DNA of 64,000 nt, from positions 1 to 64,000 of the forward strand of contig CANTFK010000979.1 of assembly GCA_947646735.1 (NCBI GenBank). The letters run 5' to 3'. The stretch comes from Peronospora farinosa (taxonomy: Eukaryota; Oomycota; Peronosporomycetes; Peronosporales; Peronosporaceae). Made by a program: the position numbers and the translations under genes. This document shows positions 22,059 to 64,000 of the stretch, one piece after another (position 1 is the stretch's first letter; the number at the start of each line of letters is the position of its first letter). The notes below the pieces were generated by a model. The model ran no database searches. It was not told the origin of the DNA and saw nothing but the letters and a program-made list of their open reading frames with translations.

Positions 22059-23270
22059 TGTGGTGGAGTGGGTTCTCAAAATTGTATGATGAGACCCCAA
22101 ACCACTCACTGTGCCGGACTGCCGACTGTCGGAGGGGGTACCCCGATGCCGCGTATGGACCTTCTCTCACCTTGTGTACCCGTCGGCTGGCGGGTTGCAC
22201 TCTTCGGAAGACTTGGTGAAGATGTAGACGTCTGCCTTGAGGGAGGTAGACCTGGGGGGGGCCTCGAGTGGATATGCTTCACTCGGTGGGCCGGTAGGTG
22301 GCCACTCGATCGACCTTGTCGAGAGTGAGCCAAATTCTTCAGGGGCGCTTGTCGTCCCTGGCCTTTTCCTTCTGTTTCAGGGGTATTAACCACCTGAACT
22401 TTACGTTGCTCCCGGACCTTGAGGTGAGGGAGACCGCTTCCGATGGCGGGTCTTGGGTGGTGTTGCTACTCGAACGAGCTCACAGGCCAAATATATCCTG
22501 GAGCTCTATTCGCCCTTGAACTTCGCTACACACCTGTCTTCGACGGGGGGCCAAAATATATCCCTTCCCGGAACAGTGAGTAACTTAGAGCAAGTCCTTC
22601 TTGAGTGACGGAGTCGTGCCACGTAGATTGCATTTGTGTCTGACCACACGCCTGTCTTCAACGGGGGGGCCAAACATATCCCTTTCCCGGAACAGGCGTG
22701 TGGCCAGACTCGAGTTCTTTTACAGCGCGACGAAGACTTGCCAAGTAGATCGCAAATTGAGTAGTATTTAATATAGTCCTATCCTTTTAACTCCTTTACT
22801 TTATCCTTGCCTGAAGCTCTGATTCCTTGCGTCGACTGGTCTGATCCTTGTATTAATTGGTCAGGAGTGGGTGAACCCCGAGGGGCCGAGGTCGACCAAT
22901 GAGGGAACCAGGTCTACCAATGAGGGACCGGGTCGACCAATGAGGGACCGGGTCTACCGACGAGGAGCCGAGGTCGACAGATGAGGGACCCAGGTCTACC
23001 GATGATGGACCTGACCAATGAGGGACCGGGTCGACCAATGAGGGCCATGGTCGACTCCCTTCGGTACAGGTTAAACGTTACCCTGGTAATGACCTCTCCT
23101 TTGTTTGTCTTTCACGTTCTCAGCCAACTGTCGCTTCACTCCGAGGTTCCCTTTATCTCCGGTCCCTTCTCTCTGGTGCATGGGTCCCTTCTCCCTAGTC
23201 CACGGCCCCTTTACCCTTCAATCCAACTGGCCCCTGGGTTCTTCACAATTTAGGAAAGCACTTCACCACA
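22059..23270 (-). repeat. 5' LTR of element N
   Basis: 1212 bp with the same ends as the partner at 19275-20592. It is about 100 bp shorter, mainly from fewer minisatellite units (22871-23050) and shorter G runs. The gag ATG lies directly inside its inner end. Confidence 0.85.
22871..23050. repeat. Minisatellite in the 5' LTR of N
   Basis: Tandem 20-21 base units GAGGGACCGGGTCGACCAAT and GGTCTACC variants, fewer than in the other two LTRs of the family. Confidence 0.9.
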
Positions 23271-45773: not shown

Positions 45774-46842
45774 CATAAATGGAGCCTCGAGTACTCAGGT
45801 GGCAGATCGGGCTCCTAGCCCCAAAGTGATTCATACCCACTTCAATGCCACCACCATGCGCGATGATTCGAGACTGACTATTATCAGTCTCATCGTCGCT
45901 GGAGTGAAGCGACCACTTCGAGCGTTGTTGGATTCTGGCGCTTCCAACAACTTTTTTCGTGCATCCTGTTTGTACCTTTTCCCGTCGACTGTCACGGTTT
46001 GAGAAGGTCCAGGTGACATCGTTGTCAAACTTGCCGATGGACAACCAAAAGGCGTCCCGCGTAAAACAGTGGTTTTACCGTACACTTTTGACGGTTTCCA
46101 GAGCAACGACGAATTTTTGGTGTACGAGATGAACTATGCATTTGATTGCATACTTGGGATACCGTGGCTGTCACGGTATCAGACAAGAATAGATTGGCTA
46201 TCTCGGTCCATCAAACGACGAAGCGGTTATGACGTCAGTGAAGTGTTTACTCGTTTGTTGGTCGCTTCATCCGATTGGCCTCACGTCAGGGTCGTGAACG
46301 AACTCGCCACGACTAGTAGTCAACAGAGAGAGAGCTATGGCCCTCTGTGCGCAGTATGTTCCGTTACACTGACGGAGCCACAGAATGAAGCGGTCGAACA
46401 GCGGTTCCCGCACACACAGACATCGGTCGAACAGGGGTTCCCGATTCTCAACGAGGCGGTCGAACAGCGGTTCCCGCACACACAGACATCGGTCGAACAG
46501 GGTTTCCCGATCGATGTCGAGGCGGTCGAGCAGGGTCTCCCGCGTACAAGCACATCGGACGAGCAGAGGCTCCCGATCAATATCGAGGCGGTCGAGCAGG
46601 GGATCCCGCAAACATGTGAGGCGGTCGAAGACGAGCTCCCACCTTTAATTGACGAGAATGGACGGACTATGGATCCGCTTGAGACCGACGTGGTGGAGAC
46701 AGAGCTTCCACGCCTAGAGGGGGTGCATCCTCCTCATGTGATAGCGACGTGCCAGTATATAGCAGGGGCTCGAGACGCAAGAGAAACGCAAGAAAGGAGC
46801 ACGCCGATCACCGAGACGACGAAATTCACGTCAACATGCTGA
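45740..46842 (+). pseudogene. Protease and VEQ-repeat linker of element C
   Basis: Protease shows RPLRALLDSGASNNFF with the DSGA loop. A stop lies at 46000. The frame from 46069 continues FDCILGIPWLSRYQTRIDWL, the second conserved block. A tandem-repeat linker (about 46385-46630) follows, made of 14-residue units such as EAVEQRFPHTQTSVEQGFP. It ends near 46842 with a stop before RT. Confidence 0.85.
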
Positions 46843-47023: not shown

Positions 47024-47878
47024 GTGCGCATCGTTTCAGTCTCCGAAACAGCCAGTGAAGAAGCTCCGGAGGCTCGCCCAAAGAGCGCCAATCCTAAATC
47101 AGCGCGCGAAGAACGCTTCACGGCACAGTCTTGGGATGCTCTTCGTGCTTCGGGCAACCCTGTATACAATATCGCCCCTGAGTACGCAGATATTTTCCCG
47201 GAGAACATTCCAGCTGAGCTTTTGGCGGATCGTGGTGTGCGGCACGAGATAGATCTCGTGCCAGGATCGAAATATCGCGTGACACGGCAGTGGCCGTTAC
47301 CGCGTGATCAAGTCATCGCTATTAATGAATTTTTAGAGGGTCGCCGCAAGGCTGGCCATGTCCGCGAAGTATCTCGCCGCACTGTGCACGCTTTCAACAA
47401 GCTGAAGGACGCCACGATTCCGGCTCAAACGACCATCCCTCGAAAAGACATGGTATTGGATACCATGTCCGGGAGCGAGATCTACAGCGCCATAGATCTG
47501 ACAGACGGTTTCTATCAGATCCTCATGAGGGACAGCGACATTCCTTTCACTGCGTTCAGCACCCCAGGAGGGATACTTTGAGAGTGGTTAGTCATGCCAC
47601 AAGGTCGTAAGAACGCTCCAGCTACCTTTAATCGGATGGTGACACAAGTACTTCGTCCGCTTCTCGACTTTGCACCGAGCTACTTTGACGACATCTTTGT
47701 TCACAGCCGCGTTGATAAAAAGCTCAGCGCTTTTGATCTTCTCTCGTAGCTCAGCGCTACGGAGGTACACCTTCGACACTTGAAGCAGGTGTTTCAAGTT
47801 ATGCGCGAAAATAAATTGTACGCGAATTTGAAGAAATGTGTCTTCTGCGCTCCCGAGATTCCAGTACTCGGTTGCTAC
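47024..47878 (+). pseudogene. Reverse transcriptase of element C, first part
   Basis: SAREERFTAQSWDALRASGN, RGVRHEIDLVPGSKYRVTRQ and SGSEIYSAIDLTDGFYQILM give the palm with its first Asp. About 16 residues are deleted after GHVRE compared with E. After a stop at 47579, frames continue with FAPSYFDD-type sequence near 47680 and KLYANLKKCVFCAPEIPVLG. A 1.47 kb solo LTR then interrupts the gene. Confidence 0.85.
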
Positions 47879-49345
47879 TGTGGTGGAGTGGGTTCTCAAA
47901 ATTGTATGATGAGAATCCAAACCACTCACTGTGCCGGACTGCCGACTGTCGGAGGGGGTACCCCGATGCCGCGTATGAACCTTCTCTCACCTTGTGTACC
48001 CGTCGGCTGGCGGGTTGCACTCTTCGGAGGATTTGGTGACGATGTAGATGTCTGCCTTGAGGGAGGTAGACCTGGGGGGCCTCGAGTGGATATGCTTCAC
48101 TCGGTGGGCCGGTAGGTGGCCACTCGATCGACCTTGTCGAGAGTGGACTTAGAGCCAAATTCTTCAGGGGCGCTTGTCGTCCCTGGCCTTTTCCTTCTGT
48201 TTCAGGGGTATTAACCACCTGACCTTTACGTTTCTCCCGAACCTTGAGGTGAGGGAGACCGCTTCCGATAGCGGGTCTTGGGGGGTGTTGCTACTCGAAC
48301 GAGCTCACAGGCCAAATATATCCTGGAGCTCTATTCGCCCTTGAACTTCGCTACACAACTGTCTTCGACGGGGGGGCCAAAATATATCCCTTCCCGGAAC
48401 AGTGAGTAGCTTAGAGCAAGTTCTTCTTGGGTGACGGAGTCGTGCCACGTAGATCGCACTTGTGTCTGACCACACGCCTGTCTTCAACGGGGGGGGGGGG
48501 GGGCAAATATATCCCTTCCCCGGAACAGGCGTGTGGCCAGAATAGAGTTCCTTTACAGCGCGACGAAGACTTGCCAAGTAGATCGCAAATTGAGTAGTAT
48601 TTAATATAGTCCTATCCATTTGACTCCTTTACTCTATCCTTGCCTGAAGCTCTGATTCCTTGCGTCGACTGGTCTGATCCTTGTATTAGTTGGTCCGGAG
48701 TAGCTGAACCCCGAGGGACCCATGTCTACCAGCGAGGGGCCGAGGTCGACCAATGAGGGAACCAGGTCTACCAACGAGGGACCGGGTCGAACGATGAGGG
48801 ACCGGGTCGACCAATGAGGGACCCAGGTCTACCAACAGGGACCGGGTCGAACGATGAGTGACCGGGTCGAACGATGAGGGACCGGGTCGACCAATGAGGG
48901 ACCCAGGTCTACCAACAGGGACCGGGTCGAACGATGAGTGACCGGGTCGACCGACGAGGGACCCAGGTCTACCGATGAGGGACCGGGTCGACCAATGAGG
49001 GACCGGGTCGACCGATGAGGGACCGGGTCGACCGATGAGGGACCGGGTCGACCGACGAGGGACCCAGGTCTACCGATGTGGACCGGGTCGACCGATGATG
49101 GACCGGTCTACTGACGAGGGCCATGGTCGACTCCCTTCGGTACCGGTTAAACAGTACCCTGGTAATGACCTCTCCTTTGTTTGTATTTCACATTCTTATC
49201 CAGCGGTCGCTTCACTCCGAGGTTCCCTTGATCTCCGGTCCCTTCTCTCTGGTGCGTGGTCCTTTCTCCCTAGTCCACGGCCCCTTGTCCTTTCAATCCA
49301 ACTGGCCCCTGGGTTCTTCACAATTTAGAAAAGCACTTCACCACA
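47879..49345 (-). repeat. Solo LTR of the N family inside C
   Basis: 1467 bp from TGTGGTGGAGTGGG to GCACTTCACCACA. It is flanked by an exact 4 bp duplication CTAC (47875-47878, 49346-49349); removing the LTR and one CTAC restores the RT frame as VLGCYDSKEGVRAD. It carries a run of 15 G at 48489-48503 and the longest minisatellite of the family (48711-49125). Confidence 0.92.
48711..49125. repeat. Minisatellite in the solo LTR
   Basis: Roughly twenty 20-21 base units of the GGGACCGGGTCGACCGATGA and GGGACCCAGGTCTACC types. Higher-order repeats are visible where the same block of units recurs near 48800-48860 and 48890-48950. Confidence 0.9.
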
Positions 49346-49349
49346 CTAC

Positions 49350-50254
49350 GACAGCAAGGAAGGTGTCCGCGCTGATACTGAAAAGATCTCATCGATCTGT
49401 TCCTGGCCAACGCCCAGGAACCAAACTGAATTACGTCAATGGCTCGGTCTTGCGAATTACTTGCATAAGTATACGAAGAACTATGCTGAGCTAATTCAGC
49501 CATTATCGACTTTGCTCAAGAAAGATGCAGTATGATTATGGAAGACAGAACATCAATCTGCCTTCGACTTCGTGAAGGTGATCTTGTCCGAGGCACCGGT
49601 GCTGATGTTACTGGATGACTCTAAGCCATTCCACGTCGTATGTGACGCGAGCAATTTCGCTATAGGATGTGCCCTCGTGCAATTTGATGACGAAGGTCGA
49701 GAGCGCGTCGTGAGTTTTCAATCACGACAGATGAAACTGCCGAGAAAAATTATCCGGTACACGACAAGGAACTTTTGGCTATGCTTTACGCTCTAATCAA
49801 GTTTAGAGTATATTTGCTCGGCGAAAAGATGTTTTCTATCTACACAGATCACGCATCATTGCGTACCGCCGTCAAGAGTCCTCACTTGTCTCAGCGTTTG
49901 GAAAGGTGGTTGTCATTTTTCGCCGAGTATAATTTTGTAGTGCATTACAAGTCTGGCAAGAATAAAATTCTCGCTGACGCGCTTTCTCGTCGTCCTGATT
50001 ACGATCCTCGGCGCGATATGGGTCATCAAACGGAGTATGTTGATGACGACGAAGATATCTGTGCGTGTTGTATTGAACTGGGGCTTAATGCGATGATTTC
50101 GACCCTTCTGCTGCCGATCCGAACTCATATCGCTGAATCCTACGCGAATGATTCCTTATATGCAGGAATCATCAGTATCTCAGGGACCGAGCGAAAAATT
50201 ACTCGCGAAGTTGACGAAACCAACACGCGACAACTTCGAGCGTCTCGCGCTTGA
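49350..50254 (+). pseudogene. RT thumb and RNase H of element C
   Basis: Resumes with TELRQWLGLANYLHKYTKNY, then PFHVVCDASNFAIGCALVQF, the RNase H start with its Asp. After a frameshift the frame from 49775 reads FSIYTDHASLRTAVKSPHLS, RWLSFFAEYNFVVHYKSGKN and LADALSRRPDYDPR. From about 49675 onward the DNA is repeated in inverted orientation at 64000-61328. Confidence 0.88.
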
Positions 50255-50286
50255 CGGTCCGTTGCTGACGTACATGATGGACGTCT

Positions 50287-51600
50287 TTGATTAATGAATT
50301 TTACGACAGCCCAGCTGGCAGACACCTGGGTCGCGAGAAGACGTTTGCGGCTATTTCTCGCGTATTTTTTTGGCCGCAAATGTATAAGTACATCCAGAAA
50401 TGGGTGCGCTCCTGTGAAACCTGTCAGCATGTGAAGCCCGCGCCGTCTTCACAAGCCCCGTTGCGTCCGCTTTTGATTGCTACGAAAGCCTTGCGTTCGG
50501 TCAGTATGGATTTATCTTTGGTCTTCCACCGGATGAACAGAAACGCACGGGCTTATTGGTTCTAGTGGATCGATTCAGCAAAATGGTGCATTTTGCTCCG
50601 GTCTCCGCCAACATTACGGCGGATACGACAGCGAAGATCTTCATTGATCTTATCTTTAAGCATCACGGCTTGCCAGAATCTATTGTTTTGGACCGTGACC
50701 CACGCTTCACTTCGGCTTTCTGGGCCGAGTTATTCCAGCTATTAGGCACGCGGTTGCTTATGTCTACGGCGGCCCATCCCGAGACGGATGGGCAAACGGA
50801 GCGTGTGAACAGAGTGCTCGAAGATGTCCTGCGCAGTGATGCAACATCGTTCTCGTCATGGAGTTCGCTCCTTCCACTTGCAGAGTTTGCAATCAACAAT
50901 GCTGTCCATGCGTCGACCGGATTGACGCCCTTTTTCGCTCACAACGCGAGGCATCCTCGCGTTCCGGAGCTACTTGCTCTCTCAGCTTCAGAGCACCTAG
51001 TCTCTAAGCTTGATGGGGGAGTATCTACTGATGGAATTGCGCCACAACTATTGCTGATTGACGATGCGAATGAGGTTGCTGCCGATGCACCTAATGCTGG
51101 TAATTTTGTGGCCAACGGCATATCGACTCCTGACGCGATGCTTTCCATCGCGTCTCCCGTTGCTAATTTTACGCCAAAAGAGAATACGTCGCCTGTAAGT
51201 TCGGCTGCAGTAACCGAATTTCTTCTATTACGACAAGGAATTACGCGTTTTGTGCGTGATGCATTACAGGAGGTAGTCTATAAGCAAAAGGAAAATGCAG
51301 ACAGAAGAGGTCGAAAGAATATGTCCATATTTCGAGAAGGTGACAGAGTATTTTTATCAACAAGTGAATTACCGAACACCTCAGTGACGAATTTTGGGCG
51401 CTAACAAGTTAGCGCCAAGATATATTGGCCAATTTCGGGCTGTCAAGGTGCATGGTTACGCTTACACGCTAGACATACCTACATCTATGCGTTTGCACCC
51501 AACGTTCTACGTCGGGCGCCTCAAGGCTTACCTACCGGCGGATCTCCCTTCGAATCTTTCCCGCTTCTTCTGTGCCGGCTCGAAATCCGACATCCCTTGA
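50287..51600 (+). pseudogene. Integrase of element C
   Basis: The zinc part reads EFYDSPAGRHLGREKTFAAI and SCETCQHVKPA. The core frame (50556-51404, 282 residues) has VLVDRFSKMVHFAPVSA, ESIVLDRDPRFTSAFWAELF and AHPETDGQTERVNRVLEDVL, a complete D-D-E set. The C-terminal part continues in the next frame after an extra G near 51400, with APRYIGQFRAVKVHGYAYTL and LHPTFYVGRLKAY. The frame changes at 50565 and 51400 are also in the inverted copy, so they predate the duplication. Confidence 0.88.
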
Positions 51601-52324
51601 CGACGACGTTGACGACGACTGGAACCAAGTCCTGCCCGAAAGCGTGCAGACTCGATCTGCTGGGGTCCTCCGAACGCAGTCGTCTCAAGTTGACGTAGGC
51701 GCTCAACCAGTACCAGCTGCTCACGTCGAATCCGCTCAGCAGCCTCAGTCGAAGCATCCGCACGATCTTGAGCTCTCTCAGCCATCTCGCGAGTATCAAG
51801 TAGGGCATTCTTCGATTCCTCGGCTTCAGCGCGAAGTAGGCGCAGCTCATCATTCGACTGTACAGGCGCCCGATTGCGAGAATCGGCGCTCATCGCCAGA
51901 GGTTTTCCGTCGTGATGCTCCTCCTCCCTTAGTTGATGCATCGGGTGCGCGACGCTGGATTGTCGACCGAATTGTCGATCACGAGGATCACAAGCCACAG
52001 GCGCCGAGTAATGACTCGGCGCCCACGAAGAACCATGTCGAGAAACATTACAGGGCTCGGTGGTTGGGATATTCCCCGGCGGACGATACATGGGAGCCAT
52101 CGAGTACGCTGTCCCAAGATGTCCCGGACGTGGTTGAGGACTATGAGTCCCGTAGAAAGACGGTGATCGCGACCGACGCTGCCGGTTCCATTCCCGATCT
52201 CGCGAGCCGTAATGCTCGCGAGAAACGAAACCACGACGACCTCCCGAGCGACTCCGAGACCGAGACCTATTACGAGGCTCGGGAGCATACAGATGATACG
52301 GTTGACGACCTAGGCTACGTGAAT
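51528..52324 (-). pseudogene. Antisense accessory gene of C, C-terminal part
   Basis: A minus-strand frame open from 52319 to a stop at 51528, opposite to the chromodomain. It begins with an arginine-serine run (NRSRSRSRSGGRRGF, then RQRRSRSPSFYG). It passes a proline-rich part (APMYRPPGNIPTTEP) and ends in a coiled coil (LRLLRAEAEESKNALL, IRREQLVLVERLRQLE) and a basic tail. The frame is continuous with 59990-60012 and with the N-terminal part at 60320-60903 once the inserted E and solo LTR are ignored. Confidence 0.65.
51572..52324 (+). pseudogene. Chromodomain end of C pol, cut by element E
   Basis: The frame carries ARRWIVDRIVDHEDHKPQ and EKHYRARWLGYSPADDTWEP, then PDVVEDYESRR: a chromodomain with its aromatic residues. 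An acidic tail follows (SDSETETYYEAREHTDDTVD). At 52324 element E interrupts the codon run. The remaining residues (NALGDRKEA) are at 59985-60012. The whole segment is overlapped on the other strand by the antisense gene. Confidence 0.85.
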
Positions 52325-52662
52325 TGTAACGGGGCTAGAACGTACCGTCACTAGCTTACACGCGCGCTTGAGGAAGACTCAAGCCCAAGTATTAGGTATT
52401 AAGTAAATTTAACTCTGATTTTTATTTTGGTTTTAATTCGTACTAATTACGAAGATTTTAGTCGTAATAAATACGACAGTGTTCCCGCCTTTCGGGAACC
52501 ACACAATTTCAGGTTGATTTATCATTGGTCCATATTGGGGACTTTAGGCCCAATAATAAACCAGTGATAAATTACCACGCTGTGCCCGCTATTCGGGCCC
52601 AGCACCTGCCTACATATGTAATTGTTTATTCATATTAATACTATGTAATGTAGCCCATTACA
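52325..52662 (-). repeat. 3' LTR of element E
   Basis: 338 bp, TGTAACGGGG to GCCCATTACA as printed. It differs from the 5' LTR near 52545 (CTTTA/CTTAA) and 52563 (CAGTG/CAATG). Carries the hairpin series described for the 5' copy. Confidence 0.95.
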
Positions 52663-52675
52663 TCACCTCCTTCTC

Positions 52676-54111
52676 ATGACAGCACTCACCAACCGTGAGT
52701 GCTCAACTGTCGAAAACCCTTTGCTCACAAACGAACAAGCAATGTCTGGAGACCCAACACCCAATCCAGCAGGACGCCCAAGATACATCAGCGGGAATGC
52801 ATCAACCAGCATCATGGCGCGGCAGCTCATACCTTGGTCGCTGTACGACTTGTCCGGAGCTCACGCTCCGGACTCACTGGACATGATGCGGGAATACTTC
52901 CGCCGATTTCGAAAACTGCGCGGGAAAGGTCTTGATGGAATCGAGCATGAAGCTCTACAACGTTCTTGGTGCGCCTTCATCCAACGTTGGAATCGGATGC
53001 TCTAGGATGGTAGCAACTTCCAGTTATGGCTCGCCAATCGAGAGGAACTTCGCGCCGATCACTCCATCGGCGCGCTACGCGAAAGAGTGTGTGAGGAAGC
53101 TTGGAATGAGGACCGTCTCTGCTTCGTCCATGTCAATGAAGGATGCCGATCTTGTGACTCGACTCCACGCCCAACTCATGACGAATGGCGACGACACATC
53201 GCTGAGTGTCCACTCAGCGATCGCGAACGAAGTTGGATTGCAAAGTATGAGCGAAGTCTGGGCAAACGGAGAAGCGCAGTTATTCGTGGTGCGCCTCGCT
53301 GGCAGCACCACTCGCGACAGCGGAGTCAATCTCCGCGGGATCATCAGCGCAGGGCAGCGACACGTTCGCTTGTCCGTCCTGCTTCGCGATTCTCGCCTCG
53401 CAATCGTGATATGTATTCACCGCGACGTTCTCGTTCACGGCGTCGTTCTCGTTCGCGACATCGTTCTCGTTCTGGTCATCGTTCCCGTTCCCGACAACGT
53501 GAATCTCCTTACCGCTCTCGTTTGTCACGAGAGCGTTCGCGTGCTCGCCCGCCTTGGAATAGTCCGACTTCGTGGCTTCATACGACAGAACCACATCTGG
53601 AACGTCACGAAGGAGCGAGGAACGTGGTTCCCATGTATCCTGATCGGGAGGGAATCCAAGCCAACGTACTCGGTATCTACGCACGGATGGAACCGCACGC
53701 TTCTCATGAGCCGTGGTTGAGGAGGGTCCTCGTGACCCACAATGCGGTCTACAATCCAGCGCACATGTCCCTCCGCATCAACAAGCGGAGGAGGGCTCTC
53801 GCGGTGGTAGAGCTGGCGTCCTGGTTGCTCAGGACGATGTTGATCAGGCCGTGAATATAGCTGCCGATGCTCGGCTGGAGGCTGAGGCTGCCAGTGAACG
53901 TGCTGCCCAGGCGGAGAAGACTTCGAGTGAGACCCGACAGTCGAACCGTGAACTGCTCGAGCGGATAAGGATTCTGGAGCGCCAGATGCTTGGTCAGGTT
54001 CAGACGGGATCGAGACCCCGCCCCATGTCATCGGCGCGTCGAGCGCGACGGGAAGGCCGTTCGACTTACGAACCCCTGAAGCCGGCGTCGGAGCCAAACC
54101 GTGAAGCGTAG
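52676..54111 (+). pseudogene. Antisense accessory gene of element E
   Basis: The plus-strand frame opens just inside the 3' LTR, against the element's own sense. The likely start is MSGDPTPNP near 52742. The N-terminal domain has PWSLYDLSG and ALQRSWCAFIQRWN, shared with element C. Next is a Cys/His module CFVHVNEGCRSC (C-x2-H-x4-C-x2-C) with further H and C in HDEWRRHIAECPL, then WIAKYERSLGKRR. A long arginine-serine run follows (SPRRSRSRRRSRSRHRSRSG) and, in a shifted frame from 53713, a coiled coil (RQSNRELLERIRILERQML). Defects: one in-frame TAG at 53003-53005 and one frameshift at about 53690-53740, which also breaks the chromodomain frame opposite. The features suggest an RNA-associated or nuclear-speckle-type protein (inference). 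Confidence 0.7.
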
Positions 54112-55470
54112 CCGGACGATATTCCTTCAGCCGCCCGACATAGAATGTCGGGTGGAGTCGCAGTGAAGAGGGGACGTCGAGTGTATAAGCGTCGCCAATT
54201 GCCTTCAGAACCTTGAATGGACCGATGAAGCGTGGCGCGAGTTTACTCGCGCCCAGATTAGTGACCGCAGAATCCCTTAAACCTTCCGTCGATAATAATA
54301 CACGGTCACCTTTCTCAAACTTGCTCATGTTCTTTCGTCCATGTTTGTCAGCGTTCTCCTTCTGTAGGTCTACAGCAGTTTGTAGTGCGTCGCGTACAAA
54401 CCTGGTGATGGCTTGACGTTGGAGTATAAATTCCGACACGGCCATGTCATCAATTGGTCGTGCTGACTCAATCGGCGCGTAGTTGGCAGTAGGGGAACGC
54501 TTACCAGAAGACGGGTCAATCAATGTCTGCGCAGTCCATCGAGCTAATGGGGACGCCACGTCTGATGGCGTCAAAGTAGCCGTCTTTGCCTTGGATCGGG
54601 TTACTGCATTCGCGCTCAAAATACCGTGAGCTGCACTCGATCCTTGTTTATCACCTTTATCCCCCCCCAGAGTGGAGCCACTAGGTGTTGTGGGTCGCCC
54701 CACGGCCAGGACAGTAGGAACACGAGGGTGACGAGCCGAATTTACAAAAAATGGCGTCAACCCTGTTGACGCGTGTACGGCGTTGTTGAGTGCGAACTCA
54801 GCGAGTGGTAAAAATGCACTCCAACTTGTAAATGACATAGCATACCTTCGAAGAACGTGTTGAGGACCCGGTTCACGCGCTCGGTCTGCCCATCCGTTTC
54901 CGGATGGGCCGCAGTCGACATTAGCAGTTTTGTCCCGAGGAGCTCGAAAAGTGATGTCCAAAATGCGGACGTAAATCGCGGATCACGGTCCGAAACAATG
55001 TTTTCTGGAAGGCCATGATGACGGAACACAGCGTCGATGAAGTGCGCCGCGGTCTCTGCCGCGGTGACCTTAGCGTGAACAGGCACGAGATGTGTCATCT
55101 TGCTGAATCTGTCAACAAAAACCAAGATGCCCGTTCGAGCTTGGCTATCGGGCGCAAGCCCGAAGATAAAGTCCATCGAAACTGATCTCCAGGCCTCTGC
55201 TGCAATTGGCAACGATCGCAAGGGAGCCTGTGACGATGGAGATGGCTTCACACGCTGGCATATTTCGCACGTTCGGATCCAGTTGCGTACCCACTTATAC
55301 ATGTGGGGCCAGAAGAAGTCTCGAGACACAGCCGCGAAAGTCTTTTCGCGGCCTAAATGGCCGCCAGCAGGAGCATCGTGATACTCGTGAATGATTCTTG
55401 CACGCAAATCCATGTCATTGGCAATCACCGTGCGAGGAGCATCGAATTGGTCGATGCTATACAGAAGCAA
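53280..55470 (-). pseudogene. Integrase and chromodomain of element E
   Basis: The first frame (55470-54757) holds HEYHDAPAGGHLGREKTFAA, IRTCEICQRVK, VFVDRFSKMTHLVPVHA, ENIVSDRDPRFTSAFW and AHPETDGQTERVNRVL: zinc site and all three catalytic residues. A frameshift near 54850 leads into 54961-53525, with ALNNAVHASTGLTPFF, SKLAPRFIGPFKVLKAIG and LHPTFYVGRLKEY. The chromodomain starts VRWIVDRIVGHEDPP and, after a second frameshift near 53700, continues RRYRVRWLGFPPDQDTWEP. It ends in an acidic tail, opposite to the arginine-serine part of the antisense gene. Confidence 0.88.
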
Positions 55471-55590
55471 ATCGCCATCTAAACTGTATCGATGAATATG
55501 GTCGCGCTTGGTACGGGATAATGCTCCCAGTGCAGCATCGCTGGGAGCACGCAGATACTCGATAATGTCTGCATAATCTGAGTCACCCTT

Positions 55591-57402
55591 TTACGCTGCG
55601 ACGATCTCATCAAATAAACACGGCTCGGGTGTAACCCGAGTTAAGTTCAGCGATACACACATTGCACATCGGTCATCATCGTCCTCGTCATCAGTAGCCT
55701 GGCGACTCAGAGCAGTCCGAGGATCGTAGTCAGGACGTCGTGACAAGGCGTCAGCGAGAATATTGGTCTTGCCTGGCTTGTAATGCACGACGAAGTTGTA
55801 CTCAGAGAAGAATGAGAGCCATCGTGCCATCCGTTGGGACAGGTGTGGGCTCTTCATCGCTGTGCGCAGCGATGCATGATCGGTGTACAAAGCAAACGTA
55901 CTTTCACCAAGGAGATGCACGCGAAACTTGATGAGTGCATAGCGCATCGCTAATAACTCCTTGTCGTGAACCGGATAGTTCTTCTCAGCTGGCTTCATCT
56001 GTCGCGACTGATAACGCACGACTCGTTCACGGCCCTCACCATCAAATTGCATGAGGGCACAGCCGATTGCAAAATCACTGGCGTCGCAAACCACGTGGAA
56101 CGGCTTGGAATCGTCTGGTAGGACCAGGACTGGCGCTGACGCTAGGCTCTTCTTTACTGCTTCGAAGGCTGCTTGGTGCTCGGGACGCCACAACCACGTG
56201 GCGTCTTTCTTCAAGAGTGACGACAAAGGCTGGATAGAACCAGCATAATCCTTTGTATACTTGTGCAAATAATTAGCCAAGCCGAGCCACTGGCGCAACT
56301 CCGTAGGGTTCTTGGGCGTGGGCCAAGAACAGATGGACGACACCTTCTCTGGATCAGCTCGAACTCCCGATTTACTCACATAGCAACCTAACACCGGAAT
56401 CTCCGGTGCACAAAAGACACACTTCTTGAGATTCGCGTACAACTTGTTGTCCCGCATAACTTGAAACACTTGCTTCAGGTGTTGAAGGTGAACTTGGACA
56501 TCGTTGAGGTTGCCCTCGGCGCGACTATGGACGAAGATATCGTCAAAATAACTTGGGGCAAAGTTCCGAAGAGGTCTCAACACTTGAGACACCATGCGAT
56601 TGAAAGTGGCCGGAGCGTTCTTCAACCCTTGTGGCATTACCAGCCACTCCCATAACATGCCACTCGGGGTGCTCACCGCGGTAAGTGGGATATCGCTCGG
56701 GCGCATTAAAATCTGGTAAAAGCCATCGGTCAAGTCGATGGCACTGAAGATGACACTACCTGACATGGAATTCAGCACCACGTCCTTCCTGGGAATTGGC
56801 GTTTGCGCAGGAATAGTGGCATCATTCAGCTTATTGAACGCATGCACTATCCGCCAGCCTCCCGTAGCCTTCTTCACGCAGAAGGTTGGACTCGAATGTG
56901 GTGAGATACTCTCCCGCACATGACCCGCTTTGCGGCGGCCTTCAAAGAATGCGTCAATAGCTTCGACTTGATCTCTAGGAAACGGCCACTGCCGTGTCAC
57001 ACAATACTTCGACCCTGGCACGAGATCAATCTCGTGCCGAACACCGCGGTCCGCAGGAAGTTCAGCCGGGATCTTGTCCGGGAACACGTCTGCATACTCA
57101 CGAGCAATGTCGTAGACGGGGTTACCAGACTCTCGCAGGGCCTCCCATGACTGTGATGCAAACCTTTCTTCACGCGCAGACTTCGGCTCAGCGCTTTGAG
57201 GACGCGCCATATGCTCCTCGTTTGCCACGGTAACCACCTCGTTGGTGATTAGACACAGTGCCTCCCTTAAGGTCACGTAGGAAATGCTTCCAGGAAAGCC
57301 CTGGAAGACTTGTAATGGAAGACGCATTACGAGGAGGACTCTCGACCTCGATATATTGGCGCCTTTGTGGCCTCCCTTCCACGTACACGATAGCGTGGAC
57401 AC
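55591..57402 (-). CDS. Reverse transcriptase and RNase H of element E
   Basis: A 603-residue open frame, the longest of the window. RT landmarks in order: RGVRHEIDLVPGSKYCVTRQ, ATGGWRIVHAFNKLND, SVIFSAIDLTDGFYQILMRP (first Asp), WLVMPQGLKNAPATFNRMV, FAPSYFDDIFVHSRAEG (YFDD), RQWLGLANYLHKYTKDYAGS. RNase H: FHVVCDASDFAIGCALMQFD, YPVHDKELLAMRYALIKFRV, FALYTDHASLRTAMKSPHLS and LADALSRRPDYDPR. The first 65 residues are outside the true protein, because the linker frame enters after a one-base shift near 57250. The catalytic residues are present. Confidence 0.9.
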   Translation of the reverse strand: MSTLSCTWKGGHKGANISRSRVLLVMRLPLQVFQGFPGSISYVTLREALCLITNEVVTVANEEHMARPQSAEPKSAREERFASQSWEALRESGNPVYDIAREYADVFPDKIPAELPADRGVRHEIDLVPGSKYCVTRQWPFPRDQVEAIDAFFEGRRKAGHVRESISPHSSPTFCVKKATGGWRIVHAFNKLNDATIPAQTPIPRKDVVLNSMSGSVIFSAIDLTDGFYQILMRPSDIPLTAVSTPSGMLWEWLVMPQGLKNAPATFNRMVSQVLRPLRNFAPSYFDDIFVHSRAEGNLNDVQVHLQHLKQVFQVMRDNKLYANLKKCVFCAPEIPVLGCYVSKSGVRADPEKVSSICSWPTPKNPTELRQWLGLANYLHKYTKDYAGSIQPLSSLLKKDATWLWRPEHQAAFEAVKKSLASAPVLVLPDDSKPFHVVCDASDFAIGCALMQFDGEGRERVVRYQSRQMKPAEKNYPVHDKELLAMRYALIKFRVHLLGESTFALYTDHASLRTAMKSPHLSQRMARWLSFFSEYNFVVHYKPGKTNILADALSRRPDYDPRTALSRQATDDEDDDDRCAMCVSLNLTRVTPEPCLFDEIVAA

Positions 57403-58550
57403 ATTCCAACGCTAAATTCTCGGTGCTGTTGTCCCCATCGTGCTTCGAGTCACTACTCGAAGCTGGCGAACCGCAGTCAGGTGATAAACCATCACCCCCC
57501 TCTAGGCACTGGATGTCGTCATCCAAGATGCCGGAAACACTGGACGGGAGTACCCCAAACTCGACCGTCGACACTTGATGCGGGAGCTCCTGCTCGGCCG
57601 CCATAAACCCGCGTGGGAGCCCCTGCTCAACCACAGTATGCCCATGTGGGAACCTCGGTTCGACCACAGTGGGTGATGATGGGAACCCCGGTTCGACCAT
57701 CATGCTCTCGCGTGAGGACTCCTGTCCGTCCACGTCACACTCGCTGGCGAGCTCTTGCTCGTCGCCACAATGCCCTTGTGGGAGCCCCTGCTCGACCACA
57801 ATAGGTGCAGATGGGAACCCCGGTTCAACCACTGCATTCACGTGCGGGAACCCCTGTTCAACCGCATTAATGACGCGCGGGAACCCCTGTTCGACCGCGT
57901 CGTTCTCGTTGTCCTCTTCGCTCTGTAGTGAGGAGTCACTTGTCACTTGTGTCCCGAAGAACAGCACAAGCAGTGCAGAGAGGGCCATCGCTCGCTCTGT
58001 GCACCGCCAACGTCGTGGAATCGCGATCCACGACTGTGACGTTTGGCCAGTCACTTGGAGATACCAAGAGATGGGTAAACACTTCACTGACATCGAACTT
58101 GCGTCGACGTCTCGCTGATCTGGCTAACCAGTCGATCTGGGGCTTATAACGTGCCAACCATGGCATGCCCAGTATGCAATCGAATGCATAATTCATCGCG
58201 ATCACCAAGAAATCATCATTACTGCGAAAGCCATCAAACGTATACGGCAACGACACTTCGCGCCGCGATACGCGGTGTGGTTTCCCGTCAGCCAACTTGA
58301 CGACGACTTGTCCAGGTCCCTCACGGACCTGAATGCTGGGAGGCAGCATCGACAAACAAGATTCACGAAAGAAATTGTTTGTTGCTCCTGAGTCCAGGAG
58401 TGCTCGCAGAGGTCGCCAGACGCCGGCGACATGTAAACTGACAATAATCAGACGTGAATCACCACTCGTAGTGGTGGCATTTAACCGTGCGCGTAGCGCA
58501 GGAGGACTGGAAGGTTGGGCTGCCACCGGGGGACCCGGACCTCCGTTCTA
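57188..58550 (-). pseudogene. Protease and VEQ-repeat linker of element E
   Basis: Protease (from about 58550): WRPLRALLDSGATNNFFRES with the DSGA loop, then DCILGMPWLARYKPQIDWLA. A frameshift near 57940 leads to a linker made of repeats such as NAVEQGFPRVI, VVEQGLPQG and VVEPGFPSSP, about ten copies. It continues RRQYIEVESPPRNASSITSL to a second frameshift near 57250. The -1 frame entered from gag has one TAG just before the protease, absent in C. The linker composition (G, P, E, V) suggests an unstructured spacer. Confidence 0.82.
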
Positions 58551-58551
58551 A

Positions 58552-58592
58552 CCAGTAGGGCGCCCTGCACCTACTGGTCCCGACCGTTTTTT
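58552..58592 (-). promoter_or_regulatory. Gag-pol -1 frameshift signal, element E
   Basis: On the minus strand the gag frame reads CCA AAA AAC GGT..., giving the canonical slippery heptamer A AAA AAC (58592-58586). Eight bases later comes an 8 bp stem CCAGTAGG/CCTACTGG with a 10-base loop (58577-58552). The gag TAG lies in the stem. A -1 shift leads towards the protease frame. The hairpin is conserved in C. Confidence 0.7.
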
Positions 58593-59620
58593 GGACGTGC
58601 GGCCGGTACAGCACCCTCATGATGGGCGTCCACTACTTGCACCGATAATGGGGCTGGCGCACGGCACTCTGCCGCGCGATGTCCTGGCTTGCGACAACGA
58701 AAGCAAACTATTGGACGCCCGGTGCGAGCGTCACATTTATTATGAAAGATACGTCGCCGGTCACCCGACGACTCAATAACGTCGATCTCCATAGGTTCTG
58801 GGCCAGAAGGCCGGGGAACGCTGACGACCGAGGGTTTGGCATAGGCCTTTGTGACCCTAAAGTCTTCACGGAGTGCGATGGCGAATGCCTCCTCCAATGT
58901 GGCAGGCTCGGCGCGCTCCAGCGATAAGCGGGTCTGCCCCTCACGCATACCATCCACAAAGACATTCACCTGTGTGTACATGTCCATGGGGTGCGTGATA
59001 ATACACGACGCCAGATGCCTAGCCATCTGTACGTAGTCGCGCATCGCCATTTTACCCTGTCGCATCGACAGGAATCTTGATCGCACCAGTTTCTCCTCTT
59101 GTGGTGGCTCGAAGGCAAGACGGAGATCGTCCTGGATGGTATCCAAGGTGGGAAATGCGTGCTCGTCCACAACGAGTTTACCAAGGGCCCACTCCTTGGC
59201 CTTCCCGGTGAGGCGGGAAAGAAGAAAGTTGACCTTCGCCTGTGGAGCCTCAAGAAGTCTCGAGGCGATGGCGATATCAACTTCTCGGAACCACCGGTTC
59301 AGCGATAACCGGTCCTTACCTTCTCCAGAGTAGGAGGAGGTTTCCATCTTCACGGCCTCATTACGCGAAGGACGCGAGGGAGTTAAGCCTCGCCGGTTGG
59401 ATTCGGCGAGCTCGCGTGCCATAAACTCATGTATGGCGAGACGTTGCGCGTCAGGGGTCGCTGATCTCATCAGCGACGCGACGAATGCCTCTCCCGATAT
59501 CGCCGCGAGGCGATTAAGGGCATCCCACTCAACACCAGTAAGATGGGGGAAGGTCGCGTGCTCCAGAAATAAGTCTGGAGCGTCAAAGTACGACGATTCG
59601 CTCATCCCAAACTCGGGCAT
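58571..59620 (-). CDS. Gag of element E, intact
   Basis: A 349-residue uninterrupted frame starting [18 protein letters not shown], seven bases downstream of the primer site. The capsid part has [40 protein letters not shown] and [20 protein letters not shown], typical of Retrotrans_gag. One zinc knuckle [16 protein letters not shown] (C-x2-C-x4-H-x4-C) near residue 320 would bind element RNA. It ends RPKNGRDQ and TAG inside the frameshift hairpin. The ATG is chosen because it is the first after the primer site and the homologous start in C lies at the same distance. Confidence 0.93.
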
Positions 59621-59646
59621 AGGAAGGACTACAAAGTGCTACCAGG

Positions 59647-59984
59647 TGTAACGGGGCTAGAACGTACCGTCACTAGCTTACACGCGCGCTTGAGGAAGAC
59701 TCAAGCCCAAGTATTAGGTATTAAGTAAATTTAACTCTGATTTTTATTTTGGTTTTAATTCGTACTAATTACGAAGATTTTAGTCGTAATAAATACGACA
59801 GTGTTCCCGCCTTTCGGGAACCACACAATTTCAGGTTGATTTATCATTGGTCCATATTGGGGACTTAAGGCCCAATAATAAACCAATGATAAATTACCAC
59901 GCTGTGCCCGCTATTCGGGCCCAGCACCTGCCTACATATGTAATTGTTTATTCATATTAATACTATGTAATGTAGCCCATTACA
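59647..59984 (-). repeat. 5' LTR of element E
   Basis: 338 bp. As printed it contains five hairpins in order: CTTGAG..CTCAAG (59689-59705), TTCGTA..TACGAA (59759-59775), GTTCCCG..CGGGAAC (59803-59821), a long TTTATCATTGG..CCAATGATAAA with an inner ATTGGG..CCCAAT (59840-59893), and GCTGTGCCCG..CGGGCCCAGC (59901-59925, one mismatch). Several have sequence-different but pairing equivalents in the C-family LTRs. Confidence 0.95.
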
Positions 59985-60012
59985 TGAATGCCCTCGGCGA
60001 TCGTAAGGAAGC

Positions 60013-60319
60013 TGTAACAGGCTAAGGACCCGTTACCGTCTTACACTAAAAGGGCGTTGAGGAAGCGCTCTTAATGAAATATGACTCTGTTTTATTTTTG
60101 TTTTAGTTTTTATTCACATTAAGTGCGAATATGTTCCCTAGCTCATGGGAACCACTCAATATCAATTTATTATTGGCTAATTATTGGGTCTGGCACCCCA
60201 ATAATAAACGAATAATAAAAATGACGCGCAGTATCCGCCAATCGGATACTGCTCTATGCCTACTTATGTAATTATGTATTATCCCTATAACTACTTATGT
60301 AATAGGTTGCCCCATTACA
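60013..60319 (-). repeat. Solo LTR of the C family inserted in C
   Basis: 307 bp, opposite in orientation to the LTRs of its host element C. Exact 5 bp duplication GAAGC at 60008-60012 and 60320-60324. It differs from the C 3' LTR at several bases in the half towards 60319 but hardly at all in the half towards 60013. Confidence 0.92.
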
Positions 60320-60903
60320 GAAGCGCTTTCACTCGCCGTAGCTCGGACATCTGGAGCTTAGAAAGGCTTCTCTCATAACGGGCAATCCATGGACGAAATA
60401 TTCTGGCATGCCTCGCCACACACCAAGTCGTCCCATTCCTGCTGGACCGGTTGCGATCTGCCCACGTTGCACGTTGGACATTCCTCAAGAATGTGGACGT
60501 AACAAAGGTGATACTCGTCACAAGTCATACGACAAATGCGCCGGCGCAGGTCGCCAATAGCGTGTCTATCACGCGTTTCCTCGCGACCGTCTAACCAGGA
60601 CGTGAAGGACGTTCCTTCACGTCGACTCGCGTTCCAGCGTCTGATGAAGGCACACCAAGACCTCTGCAACGCATCGTCGGTATATGCGTTTTTCGTCGCC
60701 TTGCCTCTCACTGTACGGTATCGCGTGAAAAGGTCCTTCATGACCTCCAGTGACTCGGGTTCGACAGCACCTTCAAGACCATACAAGCGCCACGGTTTCA
60801 AGTCCCCATCCATGACCTGCGGCGCCTGCTCTCTACGGATTGTCGCTTGGTGTTCCCAGTTCTGGTTGTCAGATACATTGTTTCGTGGACGCCTAGGGTC
60901 CAT
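60320..60903 (-). pseudogene. Antisense accessory gene of C, N-terminal part
   Basis: The minus-strand frame starts MDPRRPRNNVSDNQNWEHQA, 115 bases inside the C 3' LTR. The domain has KPWRLYGLEG and ALQRSWCAFIRRWN, about half identical to the same region of E. It is followed by the Cys/His module CYVHILEECPTC with spacing identical to E. After a one-base shift near 60430 it continues RPWIARYERSLSKLQ. The solo LTR then interrupts it at 60319. The 60904-61018 leader has no other feature. Confidence 0.7.
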
Positions 60904-61018
60904 GCTGCTCAGTTACGTCTAACTGAGCAGGTTCGGAGTTACGCCGTTGGTCGAGAAGAAACTGCGAATCTGCGATTCGTACTAACGTTGAGGTAAGTGC
61001 CACTAAATAGGGGAGTGA

Positions 61019-61327
61019 TGTAATGGGGCAACCTATTGCATAAGTGATTATAGGGGATCAATACATGATTACATAAGTAGGCATAGAGCAGTATCCGATT
61101 GGCGGATACTGCGCGTCATTTTTATTATTCGTTTATTATTGGGGTGCCAGACCCAATAATTAGCCAATAATAAATTGATATTGAGTGGTTCCCATGAGCT
61201 AGGGAACATATTCGCACTTACTGTGAATTAAAACTAAAACAAAAATAAAACAGAGTCATATTTCATTAAGAGCGCTTCCTCAACGCCCTTTTAATGTAAG
61301 ACGGTAACGGGTCCTTAGCCTGTTACA
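61019..61327 (+). repeat. 3' LTR of element C at the palindrome hinge
   Basis: TGTAATGGGGCAACC to GCCTGTTACA, 309 bp, preceded by the purine-rich GGGGAGTGA. It serves both as the 3' LTR of C and, read on the minus strand, as the LTR that follows the chromodomain of the inverted copy. Confidence 0.9.
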
Positions 61328-62103
61328 GCTTCCTTACGATCGCCGAGGGCATTCACGTAGCCTAGGTCGTCAACTGTATCATCTGTATGCTCCCGAGCCT
61401 CGTAATAGGTCTCGGTCTCGGAGTCGCTCGGGAGGTCGTCGTGGTTTCGTTGCTCGCGAGCATTACGGCTCGCGAGATCGGGAATGGAACCGGCAGCGTC
61501 GGTCGCGATCACCGTCTTTCTACGGGACTCATAGTCCTCAACCACGTCCGGGACATCTTGGGACAGCGTACTCGATGGCTCCCATGTATCGTCCGCCGGG
61601 GAATATCCCAACCACCGAGCCCTGTAATGTTTCTCGACATGGTTCTTCGTGGGCGCCGAGTCATTACTCGGCGCCTGTGGCTTGTGATCCTCGTGATCGA
61701 CAATTCGGTCGACAATCCAGCGTCGCGCACCCGATGCATCAACTAAGGGAGGAGGAGCATCACGACGGAAAACCTCTGGCGATGAGCGCCGATTCTCGCA
61801 ATCGGGCGCCTGTACAGTCGAATGATGAGCTGCGCCTACTTCGCGCTGAAGCCGAGGAATCGAAGAATGCCCTACTTGATACTCGCGAGATGGCTGAGAG
61901 AGCTCAAGATCGTGCGGATGCTTCGACTGAGGCTGCTGAGCGGATTCGACGTGAGCAGCTGGTACTGGTTGAGCGCCTACGTCAACTTGAGACGACTGCG
62001 TTCGGAGGACCCCAGCAGATCGAGTCTGCACGCTTTCGGGCAGGACTTGGTCCCAGTCGTCGTCAACGTCGTCGTCAAGGGATGTCGGATTTCGAGCCGG
62101 CAC
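61328..62103 (-). pseudogene. Chromodomain end of pol in the inverted copy
   Basis: ARRWIVDRIVDHEDHKPQ, HYRARWLGYSPADDTWEP and the acidic tail end in DLGYVNALGDRKEA at the LTR. Uninterrupted here; the site where E sits in the other arm reads as a single ATTCA at 61351-61355. Confidence 0.85.
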
Positions 62104-62147
62104 AGAAGAAGCGGGAAAGATTCGAAGGGAGATCCGCCGGTAGGTAA
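61328..62147 (+). pseudogene. Antisense accessory gene, C-terminal part, in the inverted copy
   Basis: The plus-strand frame is open from the LTR edge through LPYDRRGHSRSLGRQ, the arginine-serine run and the coiled coil to the stop at 62147, without the E interruption. It shows that the frame is continuous in the uninterrupted ancestor. Its N-terminal part is missing in this arm. Confidence 0.65.
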
Positions 62148-63388
62148 GCCTTGAGGCGCCCGACGTAGAACGTTGGGTGCAAACGCATAGATGTAGGTAT
62201 GTCTAGCGTGTAAGCGTAACCATGCACCTTGACAGCCCGAAATTGGCCAATATATCTTGGCGCTAACTTGTTAGCGCCCAAAATTCGTCACTGAGGTGTT
62301 CGGTAATTCACTTGTTGATAAAAATACTCTGTCACCTTCTCGAAATATGGACATATTCTTTCGACCTCTTCTGTCTGCATTTTCCTTTTGCTTATAGACT
62401 ACCTCCTGTAATGCATCACGCACAAAACGCGTAATTCCTTGTCGTAATAGAAGAAATTCGGTTACTGCAGCCGAACTTACAGGCGACGTATTCTCTTTTG
62501 GCGTAAAATTAGCAACGGGAGACGCGATGGAAAGCATCGCGTCAGGAGTCGATATGCCGTTGGCCACAAAATTACCAGCATTAGGTGCATCGGCAGCAAC
62601 CTCATTCGCATCGTCAATCAGCAATAGTTGTGGCGCAATTCCATCAGTAGATACTCCCCCATCAAGCTTAGAGACTAGGTGCTCTGAAGCTGAGAGAGCA
62701 AGTAGCTCCGGAACGCGAGGATGCCTCGCGTTGTGAGCGAAAAAGGGCGTCAATCCGGTCGACGCATGGACAGCATTGTTGATTGCAAACTCTGCAAGTG
62801 GAAGGAGCGAACTCCATGACGAGAACGATGTTGCATCACTGCGCAGGACATCTTCGAGCACTCTGTTCACACGCTCCGTTTGCCCATCCGTCTCGGGATG
62901 GGCCGCCGTAGACATAAGCAACCGCGTGCCTAATAGCTGGAATAACTCGGCCCAGAAAGCCGAAGTGAAGCGTGGATCACGGTCCAAAACAATAGATTCT
63001 GGCAAGCCGTGATGCTTAAAGATAAGATCAATGAAGATCTTCGCTGTCGTATCCGCCGTAATGTTGGCGGAGACCGGAGCAAAATGCACCATTTTGCTGA
63101 ATCGATCCACTAGAACCAATAAGCCCGTGCGTTTCTGTTCATCCGGTGGAAGACCAAAGATAAATCCATACTGACCGAACGCAAGGCTTTCGTAGCAATC
63201 AAAAGCGGACGCAACGGGGCTTGTGAAGACGGCGCGGGCTTCACATGCTGACAGGTTTCACAGGAGCGCACCCATTTCTGGATGTACTTATACATTTGCG
63301 GCCAAAAAAATACGCGAGAAATAGCCGCAAACGTCTTCTCGCGACCCAGGTGTCCGCCAGCTGGGCTGTCGTAAAATTCATTAATCAA
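62075..63388 (-). pseudogene. Integrase in the inverted copy
   Basis: Identical in layout to 50287-51600, with the same two frame breaks (63110-63119 and about 62275). The zinc site reads SPAGGHLGREK here against SPAGRHLGREK in the other arm. The D-D-E residues are present. Confidence 0.88.
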
Positions 63389-63420
63389 AGACGTCCATCA
63401 TGTACGTCAGCAACGGACCG

Positions 63421-64000
63421 TCAAGCGCGAGACGCTCGAAGTTGTCGCGTGTTGGTTTCGTCAACTTCGCGAGTAATTTTTCGCTCGGTCCCTGAGATAC
63501 TGATGATTCCTGCATATAAGGAATCATTCGCGTAGGATTCAGCGATATGAGTTCGGATCGGCAGCAGAAGGGTCGAAATCATCGCATTAAGCCCCAGTTC
63601 AATACAACACGCACAGATATCTTCGTCGTCATCAACATACTCCGTTTGATGACCCATATCGCGCCGAGGATCGTAATCAGGACGACGAGAAAGCGCGTCA
63701 GCGAGAATTTTATTCTTGCCAGACTTGTAATGCACTACAAAATTATACTCGGCGAAAAATGACAACCACCTTTCCAAACGCTGAGACAAGTGAGGACTCT
63801 TGACGGCGGTACGCAATGATGCGTGATCTGTGTAGATAGAAAACATCTTTTCGCCGAGCAAATATACTCTAAACTTGATTAGAGCGTAAAGCATAGCCAA
63901 AAGTTCCTTGTCGTGTACCGGATAATTTTTCTCGGCAGTTTCATCTGTCGTGATTGAAAACTCACGACGCGCTCTCGACCTTCGTCATCAAATTGCACGA
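63421..64000 (-). pseudogene. RNase H in the inverted copy, runs off the window
   Basis: FSIYTDHASLRTAVKSPHLS to LADALSRRPDYDPR, matching 49775-50254 residue for residue. The frame upstream continues towards RT beyond 64000. Confidence 0.85.

Follow-up and report, generated by a model that had tools for sequence, protein, structure and literature searches.

An RS-rich gene antisense to pol in chromodomain Ty3/gypsy elements of oomycetes

Antisense genes lying 3' of pol are described, in the cited sections of three papers, for Grande (gene23), RIRE2, Retand and PvRetro13 (PMC7264820, PMC11963269, PMC8365987), and the Grande antisense product is nuclear according to the cited section of PMC7264820. 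In Cer1, CERV is reported in the cited part of PMC10309623 to be needed for export of the genomic RNA. The gene analysed here has two attributes of antisense additional ORFs: it lies 3' of pol and antisense to gag-pol, and it is conserved across copies and species. It occurs in two elements, E and C, in a window of 64,000 nucleotides (the whole stretch of DNA that was analysed).

The antisense gene and its protein

The LTRs of element E are 99.41% identical over 339 bases, and the element matches the Pfam models gag, zf-CCHC, RVP_2, RVT_1, RT_RNaseH, Integrase_H2C2, rve, SH3_Tf2-1 and Chromo. A first-pass annotation had proposed a frame opposite E gag-pol, and both its strand (+) and its place (52676..54111) are correct. 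The proposed location between pol and the 3' LTR holds for residues 1-202, whereas residues 203-481 are encoded opposite the last part of pol (copy L004). The features of E are as follows.

52325..59985, minus strand (gag-pol): element E, Ty3/gypsy with a chromodomain ending pol (LTR pair and Pfam)
52325..52663, minus strand: 3' LTR of E (LTR pair), presumed to hold the antisense promoter region
52676..54111, plus strand: antisense gene of E, with ATG at 52676 and a stop codon ending at 54111
52814..53281, plus strand: N-domain (residues 47-202), outside pol and under purifying selection
53090..53155, plus strand: cysteine motif C-x9-C-x7-C-x2-C (alignment rows)
53282..53590, plus strand: RS-rich stretch, opposite the pol tail
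53833..53994, plus strand: coiled coil, in another frame in the window copy, facing the linker that joins SH3 to the chromodomain in pol
53280..53684, minus strand: end of E pol with the chromodomain (Chromo, E 2.5e-07), antisense to the gene

The complement of a purine-rich stretch immediately precedes the ATG, which stands 12 bases past the end of the 3' LTR at 52663. Because the ATG is so close to the LTR, the antisense mRNA would be expected to begin within it. The LTRs were scanned with the consensus of the oomycete start-site motif: the best match in the E LTR has 3 mismatches and is equalled in 272 of 500 shuffles of E (chance level), while the best match in the C LTR has 2 mismatches, equalled in 49 of the 500 E-derived shuffles. 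Two lesions break the E copy in the window, a TAG at 53003-53005 and a frameshift near 53,700.

The same antisense gene is present in element C, into which E is inserted, and here it is found in pieces.

60433..60903, minus strand: N-domain of the C antisense gene (tblastn), with frame changes further on
51528..52324, minus strand: RS and coiled-coil part of the C gene, cut by the E insertion
61351..62147, plus strand: second, inverted copy of the C-type RS and coiled-coil part (sequence comparison)

The C copy in the window is also broken, with a frame change after the N-domain and interruptions by E and by an inverted LTR. In both elements a chromodomain ends pol (Pfam). The antisense proteins of E and C share 58 of 128 residues by tblastn (E 8e-33), in line with the roughly half identity claimed for the N-terminal domain, and the ALQRSWCAFI block is identical in the two.

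Window positions 49675-52324 together with 59981-60319 form an arm that is nearly identical to an inverted arm at 61018-64000 (99.8% over 2650 bases; LTR parts 97%), which could reflect an inverted duplication, auto-integration or an assembly effect. The 698-base spacer between the arms (60320-61017) contains the C-type N-domain, of which a 100% identical copy lies outside the window at C259:69304-69720. Units of about 20 bases (GACCGGGTCGACCAATGAGG-like) are arrayed at window positions 48712-49131, and also at 20104-20946 and 22879-23055; the first array belongs to a segment (47875-49346) that breaks into the C pol and is repeated at other places in the window. In C as in E, 33-base repeats are found between protease and RT (46384-46647 and 57551-57898 in the window).

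The protein is built of a helical N-domain with four cysteines, a disordered RS-rich stretch and a coiled coil, the latter two having been correctly recognised at the outset. The motif C-x2-H-x4-C-x2-C is indeed present in E and C, but its histidine (CxxH) is kept in only 20 of 32 rows, and four cysteines, C-x9-C-x7-C-x2-C, kept in 32/33, 32/32, 29/31 and 30/31 rows, describe the motif better. The density of RS/SR dipeptides in the best 80-residue stretch exceeds that of all 200 shuffles in 29 of 35 proteins; the run is not significant in the other six (P0004, P0005, P0016, P0020, P0021, P0022). In the structure model of the P. capsici protein P0003, helices span residues 36-186 (block means 67-86 for residues 41-180), a low-confidence stretch at 188-352 includes the RS run, and a long helix follows at 347-409 (confidence up to 94). 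For the coiled coil, the window copy gives a match to Alanine_zipper with an E value of 3.4e-05, just above the cut-off. No Pfam match to RRM or another RNA-binding domain, to TRP28 (PF04195) or to bZIP was found in the window pieces and 10 N-domains scanned.

Copies across the genome and relatives in other species

A search of the genome (46.85 Mb, 274 contigs) with N-domain queries gave at least 151 matches for each of the E-type and C-type queries, the two lists overlapping. At least 30 genomic copies are open over at least 460 codons (stop to stop) with no stop in the match; in L004, L007, L009, L011, L019, L020 and L025 the frame runs open from the same ATG for 479-493 residues. We fetched 100 loci (69 E-type, 31 C-type) in a non-random manner, 60 being the best-scoring matches and 40 being hand-picked, mostly stop-free rows plus diverged ones. 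Among loci with a recognised frame, one of at least 440 codons (stop to stop) is present in 32 of 64 E-type and 10 of 29 C-type loci, counts that are biased upward by the choice of loci. A stop interrupts the N-domain in 17 of 57 core E copies. Pol lies on the strand opposite the antisense gene in 67 of 69 E-type and 29 of 31 C-type loci. Within the family, copies differ in how many RSRSRH-like units the RS stretch holds (L009, L020 and L025 versus L004), and the DNA of this stretch, read in the pol frame, gives an Asn/Asp-rich tail.

Three protein searches, the first two of which scored 8000 candidates each, returned at least 33 related proteins. All 30 named relatives come from Phytophthora, Peronospora or Hyaloperonospora and are annotated as hypothetical, uncharacterized or unnamed, and N-domain residues are conserved across the genera in the alignment. 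In a tree of 31 N-domains, P. fragariae proteins join the C-type copies found in this genome (100/99), and two further contig sequences join its E-type copies (99/94), so that the two types split before, or moved between, these host lineages. The sequence PDVERRV stands near the ends of the P. ramorum protein P0007 and the P. megakarya protein P0031 and resembles PPDIECRV, encoded by the strand opposite the E pol motif HPTFYVGR, so that these two proteins also appear to be antisense to pol and are probably retrotransposon genes rather than host genes.

These relatives bear on the idea that the gene is a captured host SR-like gene carried as a passenger. Its RS stretch is like that of SR proteins, but a capture is very improbable given that the gene is common to two old families, that its C-terminus is read from the strand opposite pol, and that no named non-element relative, and no cellular relative of a protein with four cysteines, RS stretch and coiled coil, was found among the matches listed.

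Division of constraint between the antisense frame and pol

The stop of the L004 pol frame faces antisense residue ~203, so that residues 203-481 share ~840 bases with the last part of pol. The N-domain lies outside this overlap; that of L004 was compared with those of 11 diverged copies, rows under the coverage limits being excluded. In these copies, which are not independent of each other, N-domain dN/dS is 0.23, 0.24, 0.29, 0.29, 0.31, 0.33, 0.36, 0.36, 0.36, 0.56 and 0.65, and the upper 95% bound is below 1 in 10 of the 11, the exception being L081. When only residues 47-202 are taken, nine of the 11 comparisons fall at 0.14-0.36, with L093 at 0.49 and L081 at 0.80, and the neighbouring pol has dN/dS of 0.08-0.52 (nine copies measured). 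The other two frames of the same strand give 0.84-1.70 and one value of 3.12. The selection claimed in the first-pass annotation is thus borne out: dN/dS is not near 1 in the diverged copies (0.23-0.65), and conservation does not come solely from the overlapping chromodomain frame, as the selected N-domain lies outside pol. Stops are present in the N-domain of eight of the diverged copies (1-4 each) and absent from L082, L090 and L092; tail alignments are noisy for L081, L082 and L090. Among the 57 core E copies pN/pS is 0.53 (1596 pairs), as expected if private mutations acquired after insertion dilute the signal. Residues 1-46 vary freely in L004-type copies with no codon-position bias, unlike the N-domain, and since they bear no sign of selection Met47 (52814) may be the working start of the E antisense protein.

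The geometry of the overlap allows the two frames to be separated. Antisense positions 1, 2 and 3 face pol positions 1, 3 and 2 (by coordinates). Selection on the antisense frame can therefore be read from differences at antisense position 3 (pol position 2), and selection on pol from those at antisense position 2 (pol position 3). Differences at antisense positions 1/2/3 were counted by segment in six diverged copies (five opposite the chromodomain).

L092: N-domain 22/25/54; opposite chromodomain 9/21/11; opposite linker 25/36/37
L097: N-domain 25/20/37; opposite chromodomain 13/14/8; opposite linker 21/29/28
L089: N-domain 19/19/38; opposite chromodomain 12/21/11; opposite linker 5/17/16
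L082: N-domain 6/5/20; opposite chromodomain 5/7/7; opposite linker 47/33/53 (noisy)
L094: N-domain 27/19/53; opposite chromodomain 7/14/5; opposite linker 20/26/31
L096: N-domain 16/17/39; opposite linker 7/12/12

In the N-domain the excess of differences is at the third position; opposite the chromodomain, L092, L089 and L094 have an excess at the second position, the wobble position of pol. Constraint is on the antisense frame in the N-domain, mostly on pol opposite the chromodomain, and on both opposite the linker. Within the core E copies alone (minor-allele count of at least 4) a significant position bias is found in the N-domain only (2/3/14), the overlap segments having none. In the C-type copies shared variants have a third-position excess (11, 9 and 22 columns; 24 copies), and in L100, a diverged C-like copy, such an excess is absent (39/40/46).

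E was also aligned with C segment by segment. The N-domain aligns strongly in the antisense frame (z 61.5, 69/151), the chromodomain in the pol frame (z 38.1, 47/75; antisense z 3.5), and the segment opposite the pol linker in the antisense frame (z 13.2, 45/125) and not in pol (z 0.7, 23/82), while the RS stretch and the pol tail are unaligned (z 0.1, 0.5). The coiled coil faces a disordered pol linker, and the pol chromodomain faces a poorly conserved antisense stretch, a measurable case in which two opposite-strand genes share out constraint segment by segment.

A reading in which the antisense RNA alone matters, with the frame there by accident, or conserved merely because pol is or because the copies are young, can draw on the youth of the copies and on the reverse frame that shares wobble positions, which has dN/dS of 0.28-0.59. 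That frame, however, contains 3-9 stops, and we read its low dN/dS as a mirror. Selection on an N-domain outside pol, together with the linker that aligns between E and C in the antisense frame only, indicates that conservation is no shadow of pol; mere youth of the copies was also tested and is unsupported. With the N-domain residues conserved across genera as well, this reading is largely contradicted already and deserves next to no credence, and it is nearly certain that the frame is a selected antisense coding gene.

Proposed role and comparison with known systems

What this coding gene does may be approached from its parts and from precedent; the first-pass annotation had put forward RNA export, control of splicing and antisense regulation as possible roles. 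The RS stretch would bring the protein into the nucleus and have it join SR-type RNA-protein complexes, oligomers would form through the coiled coil, and the cysteine-bearing N-domain would confer specificity. On the model of Rev and Cer1 CERV, the protein would then handle the RNA of its own element, most probably by promoting nuclear export of the unspliced full-length RNA or by curbing its splicing. From the RS stretch, the coiled coil and the precedents of Grande and CERV, we consider that it may well be a nuclear handler of element RNA. For the broader statement, that this is an accessory gene of oomycete chromodomain Ty3/gypsy elements, antisense to pol and handling element RNA, we judge the case evenly balanced. 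A more elaborate version, offered tentatively, is that of an SR-like regulator (four cysteines, RS stretch and coiled coil) that would switch element RNA in the manner of Rev or HBZ. It would have evolved in an old lineage of oomycete retrotransposons, with the two genes interdigitated so that what is folded in one frame faces what is disordered in the other.

The same domains could serve the DNA stage. Nuclear import through RS-like domains has a precedent in HIV-1/CPSF6, and the RS stretch could bind a transportin-SR-like importin while the coiled coil or the N-domain holds on to the integration complex, aiding nuclear entry or targeting along with the chromodomain. The presence of an RS stretch and coiled coil, and the finding of the gene only with chromodomain elements in the loci read, are compatible with such an accessory, but antisense expression would be an odd supply of a particle component, and we regard this role as unlikely. 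Alternatively, the gene could protect the element from RNA silencing triggered by its overlapping sense and antisense transcripts, since transcription of both strands would produce double-stranded RNA over the ~840 bases shared with pol. For P. infestans, the cited section of PMC3522703 reports small RNAs of both polarities from Gypsy elements, spread along whole elements; the pieces scanned hold no known suppressor domain, and protection from silencing seems distinctly improbable. Handling of element RNA remains the role that we propose. Cer1 CERV and retroviral Rev are likewise encoded by their elements and serve to export unspliced RNA. CERV is made from a spliced sense mRNA (cited part of PMC10309623), whereas the gene here is antisense.

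HTLV-1 HBZ is a bZIP protein, and no bZIP match was found in the pieces scanned here. Like the present gene, that of HBZ is antisense and lies at the 3' end; it is expressed from an antisense promoter in the 3' LTR, and its product is nuclear (cited sections of PMC7264820 and PMC11963269). SR proteins have an RS-rich stretch in common with the protein described here, which shows no RRM in the pieces scanned. The chromodomain at the end of pol, in E and C, is that of chromovirus-type Ty3/gypsy elements. Chronos of Peronosporales is likewise a Ty3/gypsy element with a chromodomain ending pol and, in the cited section of its description, carries a second RNase H (PMC5348765), a paper in which the word antisense occurs 0 times. 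No second, archaeal-type RNase H was found in E, where Pfam and reading of the RNase H-integrase stretch gave only RT_RNaseH types, so an identification of E with Chronos is rejected.

Antisense genes are closest in placement among the plant elements Grande (gene23), RIRE2, Retand (TRP28) and PvRetro13, in which, as here, the gene lies between pol and the 3' LTR and is kept across copies and species (cited sections of PMC7264820 and PMC11963269). The gene described here differs from them in its RS stretch, its four-cysteine domain, its long overlap with pol and its residence in an oomycete chromodomain element, and the pieces scanned gave no TRP28 match. Outside plants, the brtn gene of Boty in Botrytis is also an antisense gene of a Ty3/gypsy element (cited sections of PMC7264820 and PMC8365987); brtn was compared by description only, and no Botrytis protein is among the matches listed. 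Among the open-licence PMC papers listed, judged by title and start of abstract, none treats an antisense gene of an oomycete LTR element. Given the known plant and Botrytis genes, and no oomycete case among the papers listed, the present gene is a new RS-type variant of the antisense accessory gene, in oomycete elements that, unlike Chronos, show no second RNase H. It adds oomycetes to the plants and the one fungus in which LTR elements carry such genes, accounts for a set of unnamed proteins from Phytophthora and downy mildews and, as a family that matched no Pfam model here, suggests that antisense accessory genes were invented repeatedly and independently.
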